IMG/VR virus record: IMGVR_UViG_3300042484_000240
Coordinates: 1-31,871 of that record
DNA from: a virus
DNA length: 31,871 nt
Direction: 5' to 3' (one strand)
Of this stretch, positions 17,842 through 31,871 are shown in pieces. Position numbers and translations under genes: made by a program. Numbering within the stretch: the stretch's first letter is position 1; each line of letters begins with the position of its first letter. A model generated the notes under the pieces. That model was given only the letters and a program-made list of their open reading frames with translations. It was not told the DNA's origin and did no database searches.

Positions 17842-18104
17842 TGAAAGCGCATACTAAAATATACATGAAGTATTTTGGTTATGGCATTGATTCGTACTTT
17901 GCCTGTGAAGTTTGTGATAATCGTGGAGTTGATTTACATCACATTGAAAATAGAGGAATGGGTGGAAGTAAAACAAAAGATTATATTGAAAATTTAATTT
18001 GCGTTTGTAGACAATGCCACGAGTTTTTCGGGGAAAAAGATGAATATTTAGAATTTTTAAAAATGAAACATTATGATTTTATGGAAAGACATCAAGGGTT
18101 ATGA
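17841..18104 (+). CDS. HNH-type endonuclease-like protein
   Basis: 87 aa. Zinc-binding pairs CEVC (Cys22, Cys25) and CRQC (Cys56, Cys59) frame the segment DLHHIENRGMGGSK, and NLICVCRQCHE closes the beta-beta-alpha metal motif. This is the HNH layout of small phage nucleases. The start overlaps the SSB-like stop by one base (TAATG). The end overlaps the next gene, a homing-type endonuclease, by 32 bases. It may resolve branched DNA or help at packaging; the target is unknown. Confidence 0.75.
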   Translation: MKAHTKIYMKYFGYGIDSYFACEVCDNRGVDLHHIENRGMGGSKTKDYIENLICVCRQCHEFFGEKDEYLEFLKMKHYDFMERHQGL

Positions 18105-18567
18105 AGGTATTTATCAAGCAAGTAATTTTGGTAATATAAAATCATTATCAAGATTAGTTAAAATTGGCAATAATAAAAGGGTAATTAATGAGAAAATATT
18201 ATCTCCTATAAAATGTAGTAATGGATATTATGCAGTAAACTTTACTTATAAAAAAAGAAAGCAATATTTATTACATAGATTAATTGCAAATACTTTTTAT
18301 GGAGAAAATAATGAATTAGTTGTTAATCATATTGATTTTGATAAATCTAATAACAAATTAGATAATTTAGAATTTTGCACACAAAAAGAAAATATACAAC
18401 ATTCCTGTATAGGAGATAGAAATGGCAGATTAATTTTAAATACTGAAACTGGTATTTATTATTATACTATTGTTGAGGCAGCAAAATCTATTAATAAAAA
18501 TGATGATTATTTAATTAAAAGATTAATTAATAAAGTAAAAAATAATACTAATTTTATTTATGCTTAA
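18073..18567 (+). CDS. NUMOD4-HNH homing endonuclease
   Basis: 164 aa. A NUMOD4 DNA-binding module opens the protein (WKDIKGYEGIYQASNFGNIK). The HNH nuclease follows: LLHRLIANTF (His68), then VVNHIDFDKSNNKLDNLEF with Asn85 and His86. The end (TETGIYYYTIVEAAKSINK) resembles a NUMOD1 module. Free-standing homing endonucleases spread themselves between phages by cutting alleles that lack them. The gene begins inside the 3' end of the previous HNH gene, which suggests that it arrived by insertion there. Base composition is more AT-rich than flanking genes. Confidence 0.88.
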   Translation: MILWKDIKGYEGIYQASNFGNIKSLSRLVKIGNNKRVINEKILSPIKCSNGYYAVNFTYKKRKQYLLHRLIANTFYGENNELVVNHIDFDKSNNKLDNLEFCTQKENIQHSCIGDRNGRLILNTETGIYYYTIVEAAKSINKNDDYLIKRLINKVKNNTNFIYA

Positions 18568-18576
18568 AATATATTT

Positions 18577-18762
18577 ATGCCATTATTAGAACAGATTAAC
18601 ATTGACTTGCAAAAGCGCGAACAAAAAGGGATTAAAACTTACGGAACTACTTTAGATGGTGCGGATTTAAATAAAGAGCAATTATTAAATCACTTATACG
18701 AAGAGCTGCTTGATGCAGCTTTTTATATTAAAAAATTAATTAATGATAAGTCAAGTAATTAG
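18577..18762 (+). CDS. MazG-like nucleotide pyrophosphohydrolase fragment-type protein
   Basis: 61 aa. The pattern GIKTYGTTLDGADLNKEQLL followed by HLYEELLDAAFYIKKLI is one I recognise from small phage proteins related to MazG-type NTP pyrophosphohydrolases, where the EE...D helix binds magnesium. The full MazG fold needs two such helix pairs, so this would act as a multimer or a regulator of nucleotide pools. It starts 10 bases after the homing endonuclease and overlaps the ParB-like gene by 20 bases. The enzyme activity is inferred from the motif only. Confidence 0.5.
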   Translation: MPLLEQINIDLQKREQKGIKTYGTTLDGADLNKEQLLNHLYEELLDAAFYIKKLINDKSSN

Positions 18763-19402
18763 TATTAATAAGTTAAAAAATAATACTGGACAAATAGAAG
18801 GGTTGCCTAAAAATCCAAGATTATTGAAGGATGACAAGTTTAAAAAGCTAGTTAAGTCAATTAAGGATGACCCTGAGATGTTACAATTAAGAGAAGTTAT
18901 TGCTTATCCATTAAATAATGAATTAATTGTTATTGCTGGAAATATGAGATTAGGTGCTTGTAAAGAATTGGGACTAAAAGAAATACCTGTTAAAATACTT
19001 CCGCAAGATACATCAGTAGAAAAATTAAAAGCATATACAATTAAAGATAATTTAGGATATGGCGAATGGTCTTGGGATGATATTGCAAACGAATGGGATA
19101 TGGAACAACTTGAAGATTGGGGGATGGATTTACCTTTGTTTGATAAGATTGACAATATTGAAGATGGAGAAGAAATAGAGTTTGAACAATCGGTACAATT
19201 AGAACCACCAAAAGAATATATATTAATTATGGCTGAACCAAATAGCGTTGAATGGGAAGAGTTAAAAGAAACATTAAAATTAAAAATAGTAAAGAAAGGA
19301 GGGTATAAAAAGGGAAGTCCATTTAATGCAGTAGGATTAGAAAGGGTTTTATATTGGAATGATTTTAAAAACAGATTAAATGTTAATAGCAATACCGAGT
19401 AA
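18743..19402 (+). CDS. ParB-like nuclease domain protein
   Basis: 219 aa. A ParB/Srx-type N-terminal domain is indicated by LPKNPRLLKDDKFKKLVKSI, the VIAGNMRLGACKELGLKEIP segment (usual form GNxRxxAxxxLG) and VKILPQDTSVEKLKAYTIKD. After it comes an acidic middle (DNIEDGEEIEFEQ) and a C-terminal alpha/beta part of unknown fold (YILIMAEPNSVEWEEL). Phage relatives act as adaptors or nicking enzymes and often neighbour DNA-modification genes. The overlap of 23 bases with the next gene, a DNA glycosyltransferase-type protein, suggests that they work together. Confidence 0.8.
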   Translation: MISQVISINKLKNNTGQIEGLPKNPRLLKDDKFKKLVKSIKDDPEMLQLREVIAYPLNNELIVIAGNMRLGACKELGLKEIPVKILPQDTSVEKLKAYTIKDNLGYGEWSWDDIANEWDMEQLEDWGMDLPLFDKIDNIEDGEEIEFEQSVQLEPPKEYILIMAEPNSVEWEELKETLKLKIVKKGGYKKGSPFNAVGLERVLYWNDFKNRLNVNSNTE

Positions 19403-20096
19403 AAATAGAGCAGGAGATACAACAACAAATAAAATTCTGCCTAATATTGGAACTTTTTTTGTACCATTAAGCCAAGTGCATCAGTATAGTTATATTCAAA
19501 ATGTAGTTGGAATACCAAACGAAATTCAGGGTATTACAAATACAAGAAATTGGATATTAAAAAACACAAAAGAAAATTGGGTAGTTTTTTTGGATGATGA
19601 TGCAAAAAATGTAGGTTATACTCAACTAGGAAGAACACAAGCAAAAAAGATAGAAATCAGAGATGAGGGATTTTGGGCAGAAGAATTTATAAAAGCATTT
19701 GATTTAACTGAACAATTAGGCTATAAAATGTGGGGGGTAAAAACTGAAGCAGCACCACGCTCAGTTTATCCATATAAACCAATTATAACAAAAACATATT
19801 TAACCGCTTCCTGCATGGGAATGGTTAATGATGGAGAGTTTTATTTTGATGAAAATTTTAAAGTAAAAGAGGATTATGAAATATGCTTAAGACATATTGT
19901 TAAATATGGAGGTATTTTAGGAATTAGATATTTACATTGGGAAAATGAACATTGGGTAACTGAAGGAGGATGCAAAGATTATAGAACAATAGAAATGGAA
20001 AGAAAAGCAATAAAGGATTTAAATAAATTATATCCAAATATGTTAAGAAGTGCTAAAAGGAAAGCAAATCAATTTACAATACAGTTAAATTTATAA
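19380..20096 (+). CDS. TET-associated (TAGT / GREB1-like) glycosyltransferase
   Basis: 238 aa. The start IAIPSKNRAG, the DDD metal site (residues 72-74, WVVFLDDDAK), the block RSVYPYKPIITKTYLTASCM, then KEDYEICLRH, WENEHW and GGCKDYRT match the glycosyltransferase family that Iyer and co-workers described next to TET/JBP-type base oxygenases and proposed to glycosylate modified bases in phage DNA. The fold is GT-A-like. Here no TET/JBP gene is visible, while a ParB-like gene overlaps upstream. The likely role is sugar transfer onto a hydroxymethylated base to shield DNA from nucleases; the acceptor is not proven. Confidence 0.8.
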   Translation: MLIAIPSKNRAGDTTTNKILPNIGTFFVPLSQVHQYSYIQNVVGIPNEIQGITNTRNWILKNTKENWVVFLDDDAKNVGYTQLGRTQAKKIEIRDEGFWAEEFIKAFDLTEQLGYKMWGVKTEAAPRSVYPYKPIITKTYLTASCMGMVNDGEFYFDENFKVKEDYEICLRHIVKYGGILGIRYLHWENEHWVTEGGCKDYRTIEMERKAIKDLNKLYPNMLRSAKRKANQFTIQLNL

Positions 20097-20608
20097 TGAA
20101 TAAGTGTAACGATATAGTGCTGGAGATATATAACCATCCTGACCTTATAAAAGCGATAAGCAAAACAAAGCCTGAATCAATACAAGACGATTTAAGACAA
20201 GAAATAGCAGTTAGCTTATTACTCCAACCTTGTGATAAGATATCAGCCCTATTCGCATCTAATAACTTATTACGGTATGCAATTAAGATATGTTGGTTTA
20301 TGGCTACTTCTAAAACATCAGAATTTTATTATAAGTATAAAAAAAGTGATTTATTAAAAGCAGTTGAGTATTTTAATAGTCAATTAGATTTACCGATAAT
20401 ACCTGAAAGTTTAGCAGAAGAGGCAACAAAAGCGCTTACAAAAAATAACATAGATATTGAAACCGACCACGAAATAAGAATATTTAATAAATACGTAGAA
20501 CTAGGCAGCAATAGAAAGGTAGCAGAATATTACGGAATACCAGTTAACCACGTTTGCAATATTACCAACAAAGTAAAAAAAGAATTAAAATGTATATTAT
20601 TACAATAG
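20096..20608 (+). CDS. Sigma-70-like factor
   Basis: 170 aa. The N-terminal half (SIQDDLRQEIAVSLLLQP, then FASNNLLRYAIKICWFMATS and FYYKYKK) has the length and helix pattern of sigma region 2. The C-terminal end (LGSNRKVAEYYGIPVNHVCN, then ITNKVKKELK) is a helix-turn-helix as in region 4. Comparable short sigma-like proteins are common in Bacteroidota phages. It may direct host RNA polymerase to the late genes that begin at the terminase. Overlaps neighbours on both sides. The sigma role is likely but unproven. Confidence 0.6.
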   Translation: MNKCNDIVLEIYNHPDLIKAISKTKPESIQDDLRQEIAVSLLLQPCDKISALFASNNLLRYAIKICWFMATSKTSEFYYKYKKSDLLKAVEYFNSQLDLPIIPESLAEEATKALTKNNIDIETDHEIRIFNKYVELGSNRKVAEYYGIPVNHVCNITNKVKKELKCILLQ

Positions 20609-20829
20609 CAGCATTTACGTTTGCTTATTATTTCATTAACGTAATTAATGGGCATATCATTCTAAAGAGGATATTCAAAATACCTTTAGTAAAAAGATTA
20701 AGACCTTTTGACTGTATTCAATGCCTTACTGTATGGTCAGCATTAGCATTTACATTTTTACCTATTCATACAGTTGAAACAATAGCGGTAATATTTGCAG
20801 CAGGGTTTATATCAATTAAAATAAAATGA
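20590..20829 (+). CDS. Small membrane protein with DCIQCLTVW motif
   Basis: 79 aa from ATG 20590, inside the end of the previous gene; a longer frame from 20554 is possible. Two membrane segments (MYIITIAAFTFAYYFINVI and VETIAVIFAAGFISI) flank a third weaker one around RPFDCIQCLTVWSALAFTFL. The paired cysteines after a basic-proline-Phe stretch resemble the DUF1360-like family of small phage and bacterial membrane proteins (usual form C-x-x-C-x-x-x-W). Function unknown. It overlaps the following gene by 4 bases. Confidence 0.6.
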   Translation: MYIITIAAFTFAYYFINVINGHIILKRIFKIPLVKRLRPFDCIQCLTVWSALAFTFLPIHTVETIAVIFAAGFISIKIK

Positions 20830-21185
20830 AATATTCAAATAGTTTTACGCACGATTTAAAATTTGGGGAACTTGCAGAAACTTGGGTAAATGATTTATTT
20901 AACGGTGGATTAAAAGTTGAAGTAAAAAGCGATAGATTAGCATTAAAGACTGGTAATATATTTATAGAAGTTTATTCAAGGGAAAAGCAATCAGGCATAT
21001 CAATTACCGATGCAGATTATTGGATATATAGATTTGAACAAAATGATATGGCAATAATAATACCTACTAATAAATTAAAAGAATTAGTTAAAGAATATTT
21101 TACAGGGAATTTCACATTAGGTGGGGATAACAATACAAGTAAAGGGGTATTAATACCAATAAATAAAATCTTACAAAAGCAATAG
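20826..21185 (+). CDS. PD-(D/E)xK nuclease-like protein
   Basis: 119 aa. The segment GLKVEVKSDRLALKTGNIFI with EV, then SREKQSGISITDADYWIY gives a two-strand core with acidic-x-Lys residues (VEVK) followed by an I-E pair, as seen in small PD-(D/E)xK-type phage proteins that resemble type II restriction endonucleases. I recognise the GNIFIE and SGI-TDADYW pattern as a recurrent phage family. The nuclease assignment is tentative because a clear upstream Asp is lacking. The start overlaps the membrane protein by 4 bases and the stop abuts the GT-B gene. Confidence 0.55.
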   Translation: MKYSNSFTHDLKFGELAETWVNDLFNGGLKVEVKSDRLALKTGNIFIEVYSREKQSGISITDADYWIYRFEQNDMAIIIPTNKLKELVKEYFTGNFTLGGDNNTSKGVLIPINKILQKQ

Positions 21186-22175
21186 ATGAATATAATTGGA
21201 TTAACACATAAGGAATCAGGATGCGGATATCATAGAGTAATATTGCCCCTTGCTTTTATGGATGACATTAAAGGTTATGTAACCAACTTTATAACGGAAG
21301 ATAAGACCGATAATTGGGATATTTTAGTTTATAACAGGATATGCCAATACGATTTAAATTGGAGCAAAACTAAGGAACTGCTTGGGTGTAAGGTAGTTAT
21401 GGATATTGACGACCATTGGAAACTACCTTTTAATCATTTGAATTATGAGGCATACCAAAGCATGGGTGAAAGGATAGAACGTAACTTAATGATGGCAGAT
21501 TTAGTTACGGTTACTAATTCTAACTTATTGAATAAAGTAAAGCAGTTTAATGATAACGTGGTAGTAATGCCCAATGCTTTACCGTATGGAATTAATCAGT
21601 TTACGGATATAAGGGTAGCATCTGAAAAGGTAAGATTATTTTGGTGTGGTTCGGTAAGTCATGAGAACGACATTAAGATATTGAGAGAACCACTAAAAAG
21701 ACTGACAGGAAATATTCAAATGGTAATGGGTGGGTATAACGATAGCGACCCATTAACTAAATCTATTTGGGATAGAATGTTTTCAATGTTTGCTGGTAGG
21801 CATCCATCGGTTAAACTACCATCAACAAGTCCTACTCAATACATGGATATGTATAATTATGCTGATATTGTTTTAATACCTTTAGAAGATTCAGAATGGC
21901 ACGGATGCAAAAGCAATCTTAAGATATTAGAAGCAGCAGCAAAGAGATTGCCTGTTATCTGTTCAAATGTTGCACCTTATAATATAAATACTGATGCTCC
22001 TGTGTTATGGGTAAATAATCAAAAAGACTGGTTTAAATATATTAATCTATTAATCAATAATCCTAGCTTAAGGGAAAATTTAGGCAACGAACTTTATGCG
22101 TGGGCGTCCAAAAGGTACAACTTCAAAGAAATTAATCAACAAAGATTTGATGCCTACAAAAGCATTATTACTTGA
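21186..22175 (+). CDS. GT-B fold glycosyltransferase (GT4-like)
   Basis: 329 aa. The N-terminal domain includes DILVYNRICQYD and VVMDIDDHWKLPF; the C-terminal domain has the sugar-nucleotide site region HGCKSNLKILEAAAKRLPVI with the E of ILEAAA and the CSNVAPY turn, as in GT4 enzymes. It has no signal peptide. In a phage it could add a second sugar to modified DNA bases, glycosylate virion proteins or alter host surface sugars. Its place two genes after the TAGT-type enzyme favours the first idea. The 3' end overlaps the next gene by 80 bases. Confidence 0.82.
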   Translation: MNIIGLTHKESGCGYHRVILPLAFMDDIKGYVTNFITEDKTDNWDILVYNRICQYDLNWSKTKELLGCKVVMDIDDHWKLPFNHLNYEAYQSMGERIERNLMMADLVTVTNSNLLNKVKQFNDNVVVMPNALPYGINQFTDIRVASEKVRLFWCGSVSHENDIKILREPLKRLTGNIQMVMGGYNDSDPLTKSIWDRMFSMFAGRHPSVKLPSTSPTQYMDMYNYADIVLIPLEDSEWHGCKSNLKILEAAAKRLPVICSNVAPYNINTDAPVLWVNNQKDWFKYINLLINNPSLRENLGNELYAWASKRYNFKEINQQRFDAYKSIIT

Positions 22176-22389
22176 AAAAGAAACAAATCTAGTATTTGAT
22201 AAGCATAGGCACTTTTACGATTTTTACCATAAGACAGGCGAAATAGTAAACTTTAACCATGATATTCAAAAAGAGTTATTAGATGAATATCGCAGAGTAA
22301 AAGATGCGTACTATCATTATAATACTAATTGTACAATATGCGTAATTGATTTCCTTAACCTAATATACAGATGGTATGATAACGCCTAA
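22096..22389 (+). CDS. Small protein with RGRPKG AT-hook-like start
   Basis: 97 aa. It opens MRGRPKGTTSKKLINKD, an AT-hook-like minor-groove binding motif, then is helical (DFYHKTGEIVNFNHDIQKEL; YNTNCTICVIDFLNLIYRW). The start lies 80 bases inside the glycosyltransferase gene in another frame, an unusually long overlap for this genome; the next in-frame ATG, at residue 19, would remove the hook. I prefer the long form because RGRPKG starts are common in phage DNA-binding proteins. Position just before the methyltransferase and terminase suggests a DNA-binding role. Confidence 0.6.
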   Translation: MRGRPKGTTSKKLINKDLMPTKALLLEKETNLVFDKHRHFYDFYHKTGEIVNFNHDIQKELLDEYRRVKDAYYHYNTNCTICVIDFLNLIYRWYDNA

Positions 22390-22906
22390 AGAATTTCTAG
22401 AAAAAGAAATAGGATGGGGCATAAGTTTTGACAATGCTGATTTTCTAAACCTAGCAAAAGAAACTGCAAGCCAATTAAAAGACCTGCCGATTAAATCAAT
22501 AATGGATTTCGGTGCTGGTACTGGCGTTTATTCTGCTGCGTTTCATATTGAAGGATATGATACATTTGTTTATGAAATATGGAACGAGCATAAAGAATAC
22601 ATAAGAACCAAAGCACCACATCTAAATATAATTGATAAGCCAATTACAACGGATTTAATGGCAATAATTGAAGTTGCAGAACACATGACCAACAAAGAGA
22701 TTTTAGACCTATTTAAAGCGGTTAAACCTACTTATGTACTATTCAGTTCAACAAGTGAGATAACAGACTACGATGAGCAATGGGGGCATATTAACGTAAA
22801 GAACCAAGCTGATTGGGTATTGATGTTTAAACGTATGGGTTATGAATTAGATAGACATTTATTTTATCCCACAGTTTACAGTAAATTATTTAAATTATGT
22901 CTTTAG
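22376..22906 (+). CDS. SAM-dependent methyltransferase
   Basis: 176 aa. Motif I is IMDFGAGTGVYSA (Asp44 with GAGTG), and motif IV region is MAIIEVAEHM, both of the class I Rossmann methyltransferase fold; the end VYSKLFKL is compatible. There is no DPPY or PC motif, so it is not a standard DNA adenine or cytosine methylase and resembles small-molecule or sugar methyltransferases. It could methylate the sugar added by the upstream glycosyltransferases. It overlaps the terminase small subunit start by 10 bases. Confidence 0.8.
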   Translation: MITPKEFLEKEIGWGISFDNADFLNLAKETASQLKDLPIKSIMDFGAGTGVYSAAFHIEGYDTFVYEIWNEHKEYIRTKAPHLNIIDKPITTDLMAIIEVAEHMTNKEILDLFKAVKPTYVLFSSTSEITDYDEQWGHINVKNQADWVLMFKRMGYELDRHLFYPTVYSKLFKLCL

Positions 22907-31860: not shown

Positions 31861-31871
31861 ACAATTATAAA

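Follow-up and report, generated by a model that had tools for sequence, protein, structure and literature searches.

The locus described here raises the question of what a phage glycosyltransferase of the TET-associated type (TAGT) modifies when no oxygenase gene lies beside it, and which of the surrounding genes belong to it. TAGTs act on the products of TET/JBP enzymes according to a proposal cited in PMC4111573. The window, which is the whole stretch of 31,871 nucleotides analysed from the virus record IMGVR_UViG_3300042484_000240, contains all the genes named in a previous sequence-only reading at their respective positions, and the ParB-like and TAGT genes overlap by exactly 23 bases. The features are compiled in Table 1.

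Table 1. Coordinates of the ParB-TAGT gene pair, its domains and its exchange boundaries in the window.
Feature	Position	Strand	Evidence
ParB-like gene	18743-19402	+	phrog_17622 match
ParB N-terminal ParB/Srx-fold domain, residues 1-134	18743-19144	+	Sister identity, Foldseek
Left exchange boundary, inside ParB, codons ~132-144	19137-19173	+	Homology to non-TAGT sisters ends
ParB C-terminal domain, residues ~135-219, travels with TAGT	19145-19402	+	DNA-homology break, conservation
TAGT glycosyltransferase, GT-A type, PF20691	19380-20096	+	PF20691 (E 8e-11), phrog_842 (E 2e-18)
ParB/TAGT reading-frame overlap, 23 bp	19380-19402	+	Recurs in nearly all relatives
Right exchange boundary, TAGT stop/next gene start	20085-20099	+	Homology to sisters resumes

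The ParB-TAGT gene pair

The TAGT scores 42.7 bits against PF20691, for which the curated cut-off is 27.5 bits, and retains the residues R10, T16, G51, R56, N57, D72-D73, E164-D165 and G196-G197, each of them conserved in 90% or more of 74 TAGTs. The DD, ED and GG motifs expected of a GT-A active site are present, and the catalytic residues are intact. No credible relative was found in the PDB by sequence, and the AlphaFold model, with a pLDDT of 43, is too poor for an analysis of the acceptor site. The ParB-like protein matches phrog_17622 (E 2e-44), scores 21.7 bits against ParB_N (PF02195), below the cut-off of 26.3, and finds its best matches in ParB/Noc in both fold and profile searches. 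Its predicted model shows a ParB/sulfiredoxin fold (Foldseek to ParB/Noc/sulfiredoxin, E 7e-6), with pLDDT blocks of 85-93 across most of the N-terminal domain. The general Pfam scan reported no HTH domain in the 219 amino acids of this protein and no ParA among the window genes it covered.

The pairing of the two genes is not due to chance, since almost all relatives share the 23-bp overlap, with 29 bp instead in one subgroup, and the ParB-like gene lies immediately 5' of the TAGT gene in 98/98 cases from a set of 99 distinct relatives. ParB and TAGT are also the only families common to all 14 long genomes; the next most widespread, a structural one, is found in 11 of them. Among TAGT partners, the C-terminal domain of ParB is more conserved than the N-terminal domain (mean column identity 0.80 vs 0.73) and is proposed here as the docking element for TAGT. 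The unit is two genes, ParB-like and TAGT, and not the six grouped by the sequence-only reading, the core of which is nevertheless stronger than first claimed. We found no report of the ParB-TAGT link in the open-licence literature. A look-up of bacterial hosts in the genome contigs returned a single match, to one short metagenome-bin contig.

An exchangeable slot

The pair occupies a slot bounded by the genes at 18577 and 20096, which was compared in 31 sister contigs whose genes neighbouring the slot are about 81-100% identical to those of the window. The N-terminal domain of ParB is retained across the sisters with an identity of up to 97%, including 96-97% amino acid identity to L228, L235 and L251, which have an amino-methyltransferase in the slot, while the cargo differs. 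ParB is combined with N6/N4-methyltransferase fusions in 8 of the 31 sisters, with glycosyltransferase and TET in four, with TAGT without TET in four, with ATPase-GNAT in three, with a D12 (Dam-type) methyltransferase, a C5-methyltransferase or Mom (PF25680, 1e-49) in two each, and with DpdA-like plus QueC/PTPS/radical-SAM/FolE (queuosine-type) in one. The remaining five sisters keep ParB alone, so that it may also do something independent of an enzyme. According to blastn comparison of the window with L228, L235, L251, L237, L248, L222 and L245, the exchanged unit spans from within ParB to the TAGT stop codon.

Since DNA-modifying cargoes are swapped into the same slot with sharp boundaries, TAGT would likewise modify phage DNA, for which this equivalence, one of position only, provides strong comparative evidence. 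The DNA-glycosylation function suggested by the sequence-only reading gains support, as the slot carries DNA-modifying enzymes in most sister phages. The locus also shows the pattern of a DNA-modifying enzyme that directly follows a ParB N-domain, or is joined to it in one protein, close to the terminase, with TAGT as the putative modifier. Such pairs near the terminase occur elsewhere in Leptospira phage LE3 (GNAT), Streptococcus phage Javan291 (TAGT), a prophage of Streptococcus marmotae, Mycobacterium phage Acadian (TET+TAGT) and Bacteroides phage BS-TP3 (methyltransferase).

We consider it likely that the locus is a self-contained, exchangeable two-gene cassette for phage DNA modification, in which TAGT adds a sugar to the phage DNA. 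The ParB-like protein would act as a general DNA-associated factor whose N-terminal domain stays constant whatever the chemistry, and its C-terminal domain together with the overlapping TAGT gene would form the swappable effector. ParB may recruit or position TAGT, which would use a nucleotide-sugar of the host as donor to glycosylate the phage DNA and could thereby shield it from restriction. As the terminase genes follow downstream of the cassette, the sugar is probably added before packaging.

Search for a hydroxylase

Unlike its known relatives, the cassette probably puts sugar on phage DNA in the absence of the oxidising enzyme that is assumed to be necessary. Pfam searches on most window ORFs, together with profile searches, revealed no TET/JBP, thymidylate synthase/hydroxymethylase or C5-methylase in the window. 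The PF12851 profile for TET/JBP gave no match over threshold, and an HMM derived from six phage TET proteins and run at maximum sensitivity found TET in none of the 14 long genomes while recovering the positive controls. No dCMP/dUMP hydroxymethylase (thymidylate-synthase fold, PF00303) exceeded the cut-off in 23 records in a whole-genome family search of limited sensitivity, which missed the window's own TAGT, so that its negatives are weak and the TET negative rests on our own HMM. A C5-methylase as the source of 5mC was rejected, being present in only 2/23 records. The lack of a visible hydroxylase noted in the sequence-only reading is borne out in the 14 long genomes and in 89 flanked loci. 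Its suggestion that the missing gene is hidden in the uncovered segment of about 1.9 kb is very unlikely in view of synteny, as this segment encodes the major capsid protein, together with two small proteins of the virion, in three sister genomes.

Judged from the gene neighbourhoods, the TET linkage of TAGT is clade-specific. One TAGT clade has TET in 54/54 loci and another in 0/75, and the clade of the window has it in none of its 89 flanked loci; on the TAGT tree, TET presence requires 3 changes, as opposed to 19 when shuffled.

The acceptor and alternative explanations

The other cargoes are self-sufficient, DpdA being accompanied by QueC, PTPS, radical-SAM and FolE, and TAGT by TET. As they bring everything needed, a base normally present in DNA is favoured as the acceptor of the cassette, at what we estimate to be roughly even odds. 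It is plausible, and put forward here tentatively, that the TET-independent TAGT clade directly glycosylates an unmodified base, with an exocyclic amine or a ring nitrogen as examples of the site. ParB would guide the enzyme and serve as a universal chassis on which DNA-modifying enzymes can be interchanged. To our knowledge, no glycosyltransferase moves a sugar from a nucleotide-sugar onto an unmodified DNA base.

Possible, but rather doubtful, is that TAGT glycosylates a hydroxymethylated or otherwise hydroxylated base whose hydroxyl comes from a host enzyme or from phage enzymes that lack homology to TET/JBP and to dCMP/dUMP hydroxymethylase. This explanation shares the claim of DNA glycosylation with the two-gene cassette, so that the confidences in the two overlap, and it fits the family name of TAGT, the proposal, cited in PMC4111573, that TAGT works with TET/JBP, the TET that accompanies some TAGT clades and the many phage genes that are still unnamed. 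However, no gene beyond ParB and TAGT is common to the 14 long genomes, so that a single dedicated phage hydroxylase shared by them is not seen, and PF12851, PF00303 and our own TET profile gave no match over threshold. Moreover, the TAGT-only pairs (ParB-TAGT without TET) occur in unrelated phage backgrounds, and a host enzyme would therefore need to be widespread.

Phages do have glycosyltransferases acting on surface sugars, and genes for a sugar epimerase and other glycosyltransferases are found in related loci, so that the target of TAGT could be a virion protein, a host surface sugar or ParB itself, with the adjacency of ParB reflecting regulation. We regard this as unlikely, given that the sister slots carry DNA methyltransferases, Mom, glycosyltransferase+TET and the 7-deazaguanine pathway, and that the exchange unit starts inside ParB and ends at the TAGT stop.

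The larger module proposed earlier also contained a GT-B gene (PF13692; phrog_7162, E 3e-65), a Methyltransf_23-type methyltransferase gene (8e-6, 26.1 bits, just below the 27-bit cut-off), and PD-(D/E)xK and AT-hook-like genes labelled solely by motif reading. Membership of these four is not supported, and the six-gene module was rejected, since the GT-B, methyltransferase and PD-(D/E)xK genes do not track ParB-TAGT. GT-B is 81-93% conserved in sisters regardless of slot content, the methyltransferase gene co-occurs with methyltransferase, TET or empty slots, and the PD-(D/E)xK gene represents an indel of its own. By this distribution, neither GT-B nor the methyltransferase gene depends on the slot, and with this the suggestion of a methylated or doubly decorated sugar falls. 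That TAGT, GT-B and methyltransferase jointly make such a DNA sugar is highly improbable. The three genes lie within 3 kb of each other in the window, but sisters retain GT-B whether their slot holds ParB alone, a methyltransferase, Mom or TET, the methyltransferase gene persists in several such slot types, and most ParB-TAGT loci have neither gene.

Significance and comparison with known systems

Within a single phage lineage, about eight DNA-modification cargoes are swapped on one near-constant ParB domain. The ParB proteins that stand without explanation near phage modification genes can thereby be tested as a common factor. As TAGT clades split into those always and those never found with TET, the assumption that TAGT requires a hydroxylated base made by TET can be tested directly. 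Should the acceptor prove to be a canonical base, the cassette would represent a new class of DNA modification and provide a new enzyme tool.

In TET/JBP-TAGT systems such as those of Arthrobacter phage Altadena and Mycobacterium phage Acadian, the TAGT (PF20691) lies near a ParB-like gene as here, and in Acadian the terminase genes again follow directly. However, these systems have a TET/JBP oxygenase beside TAGT, and often a deacetylase, whereas the window clade has neither there. ParBc proteins of unknown function have been described near phage DNA-modification genes (PMC12783734), and the ParBc-linked DNA methyltransferase/carboxymethyltransferase systems share with this locus a ParB_N protein fused to or near the DNA-modifying enzyme; here, by contrast, the cargo is a glycosyltransferase and its exchange on a near-identical ParB is directly seen. 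In the T-even glucosyl-hmC pathway, sugar is likewise placed on phage DNA, and phrog_842 is named after the T-even glucosyltransferase, but no dCMP hydroxymethylase homologue was detected here (23 records, search of limited sensitivity). The Dpd/DpdA-DpdB 7-deazaguanine systems (PMC12839542, PMC6392294) also pair a ParB-superfamily partner with a base-modifying enzyme, using base-exchange chemistry in contrast to the glycosylation predicted here, and in one sister phage the very slot that holds TAGT in the window is occupied by DpdA-like plus QueC/PTPS/radical-SAM/FolE.

The ParB-TAGT pair

The window covers the 31,871-bp IMG/VR virus record in full, and every gene named in the sequence-only reading was found at its coordinates. 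The active site of the TET-associated-type glycosyltransferase (TAGT) is intact. In the structure model of the ParB-like protein, the N-domain mostly reaches a pLDDT of 85-93, and its fold matches are ParB, Noc and sulfiredoxin.

Genes of the window and their profile matches
Gene	Position	Match
NUMOD4/HNH homing-endonuclease-like	18073-18567	
ParB-like protein	18743-19402	phrog_17622 (2e-44); ParB_N sub-threshold
TAGT glycosyltransferase	19380-20096	PF20691 (8e-11); phrog_842 (2e-18)
PD-(D/E)xK-like	20826-21171	
GT-B glycosyltransferase		PF13692; phrog_7162 (3e-65)
Methyltransf_23 protein		Pfam match slightly under the curated cut-off

A protein search of viral contigs recovered the TAGT at 64-100% identity in 60 loci, and alignment of the window genes to these loci showed that ParB and TAGT travel together across otherwise largely unrelated gene backgrounds. 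Further scans raised the set to 99 distinct sequences of the window's TAGT type, with ParB directly upstream in all 98 that have visible upstream DNA. The two reading frames overlap by 23 bp in the window and in nearly all relatives, and by 29 bp in one subgroup. ParB and TAGT were the only families found in 14/14 long genomes, the next best being a structural family (11/14), so that the six-gene glycosylation module proposed earlier shrinks to a conserved unit of two genes.

The PD-(D/E)xK-like gene is missing in most sister phages, where its flanks are contiguous, and is a separate indel; it also occurs in L243, a sister with Mom in the ParB slot (91%), and in L125 (57%). The homing-endonuclease-like gene adjoins the slot and is present only in some relatives.

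Exchange of cargo on one ParB

Sister phages retrieved with the GT-B gene are 81-93% identical to the window in GT-B, 95-100% in the gene at 20096 and 91-98% in TerL. At the position of the pair they carry ParB with differing cargo, confirmed for representative cargoes, and the ParB N-domain of three sisters with methyltransferases (L228, L235, L251) is 96-97% identical to that of the window. These gene contents make this a DNA-modification slot.

Cargo at the ParB position in 31 sister contigs (L-numbers), the window's near-copies left out
Cargo	Contigs	Members
Fused N6/N4 methyltransferases	8	L221, L225, L228, L235, L240, L241, L245, L251
ATPase-GNAT	3	L222, L230, L231
Mom	2	L229, L243
D12 methyltransferase	2	L227, L234
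C5-methyltransferase	2	L233, L249
Glycosyltransferase + TET	4	L238, L239, L242, L250
TAGT without TET	4	L224, L232, L244, L248
DpdA-like + QueC, PTPS, radical-SAM, GTP cyclohydrolase I	1	L246
ParB without enzyme	5	L223, L226, L236, L237, L247

DNA homology to the non-TAGT sisters stops at 19137-19173, within ParB past its N-domain, and restarts at 20085-20099, the TAGT stop codon; the exchanged block is therefore the ParB C-domain plus TAGT. At about the left boundary, sisters with methyltransferases have the enzyme joined in frame to ParB, and among the ParB partners of TAGTs the mean column identity is 0.80 in the C-domain versus 0.73 in the N-domain. The C-domain may thus serve as the coupling between TAGT and ParB, a role that the in-frame fusion plays for the methyltransferases.

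In L236 and L237, an HNH endonuclease gene lies just upstream instead of a modifying enzyme. The TET-associated TAGT of L242 (1740-2452) is split into two frames, reflecting either an assembly error or decay, and is intact in L250.

TAGTs with and without TET

Linkage to TET is specific to TAGT clades. Among the relatives of the L250 TAGT, TET follows directly downstream in 54/54 loci that have context, with ParB lying upstream in 53/53; the relatives of the L244 TAGT have ParB in 74/80 and TET in 0/75. On a tree of 74 TAGTs, in which deep long-branch placement is unsure, the TET label changes 3 times versus 19 with shuffled labels, and the catalytic residues are kept in nearly all. Such clade-specific linkage with few changes argues that TAGT without TET is a stable state and not a recent loss in the window.

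In some L244-type loci, ParB and TAGT are separated by an additional gene, either a second TAGT-like one or a different glycosyltransferase. Tandem TAGT-like genes follow ParB, without TET, in nine loci (L307, L310, L311, L312, L315, L319, L329, L335, L339), and a sugar epimerase lies downstream in L308, L322 and L325, which suggests two sugars or two sites.

Search for a hydroxylase

The earlier observation that no oxygenase is visible held up. A search at maximum sensitivity with a profile of six phage TET/JBP proteins recovered its positive controls at E below 1e-100 and gave no significant match in any of 17 TAGT genomes or contigs, the window among them, and searches with PF12851 and PF00303 gave none over cut-off. 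TET was found in 0/89 distinct flanked loci of the window's TAGT type with at least 700 bp downstream. A C5-methylase occurs in 2/23 records. The whole-genome family search is not fully sensitive, as it overlooked the window's own TAGT.

Synteny argues against the suggestion that the missing gene lies in the uncovered segment. The record is open at both ends (1-91 and 31861-31871), and about 1.9 kb separates its last and first genes in three sister contigs (33.0-34.7 kb), which are circular assemblies because their ends overlap. There the segment encodes a capsid-like protein of 321 aa along with two small proteins; the gene of the second small protein (122 aa) ends in the window, its final 29 codons corresponding to the first bases (1-91). 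Given this synteny, the uncovered segment would hold virion genes, not an oxygenase. A contig of 44,117 bp (L016/L017) carries the TAGT twice, 31,865 bp apart, and probably represents a circular genome of about 31.9 kb that was assembled beyond its full length.

Acceptor and comparison with known systems

We infer that DNA is the TAGT substrate, that ParB recruits the TAGT and that the modification brings an anti-restriction benefit. Because other cargoes bring their needs, a TAGT on its own should require no more than a nucleotide-sugar from the host and a base that DNA already contains, and we tentatively take such a base as the acceptor of the TET-free TAGT. A precedent for attaching a sugar to an unmodified DNA base exists in the DarT-type ADP-ribosylation of thymine. 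A hydroxylated base, host-made or unrecognised, is a serious and only slightly less likely candidate; it would agree with the proposal that TAGTs act on TET/JBP products, as cited in PMC4111573.

ParB also lies near the terminase in reference phages, beside ATPase-GNAT in Leptospira phage LE3, a methyltransferase in Bacteroides phage BS-TP3, a modification gene in Mycobacterium phage Acadian and TAGT in Streptococcus phage Javan291, whose whole record gave no TET with PF12851. Acadian gp2 (813-1691 of its locus L184) bears the annotation queuine tRNA-ribosyltransferase but aligns with TET/JBP oxygenases, sharing their HxD and H...R motifs, and judged by this alignment the corresponding name of phrog_6059 looks wrong.

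ParBc proteins of unknown function have been described near phage modification genes (PMC12783734), and the ParB-like DpdB is paired with DpdA (PMC12839542, PMC6392294). In the open-licence literature searched, neither ParB-TAGT pairs free of TET nor the exchange of cargo on a single ParB turned up.
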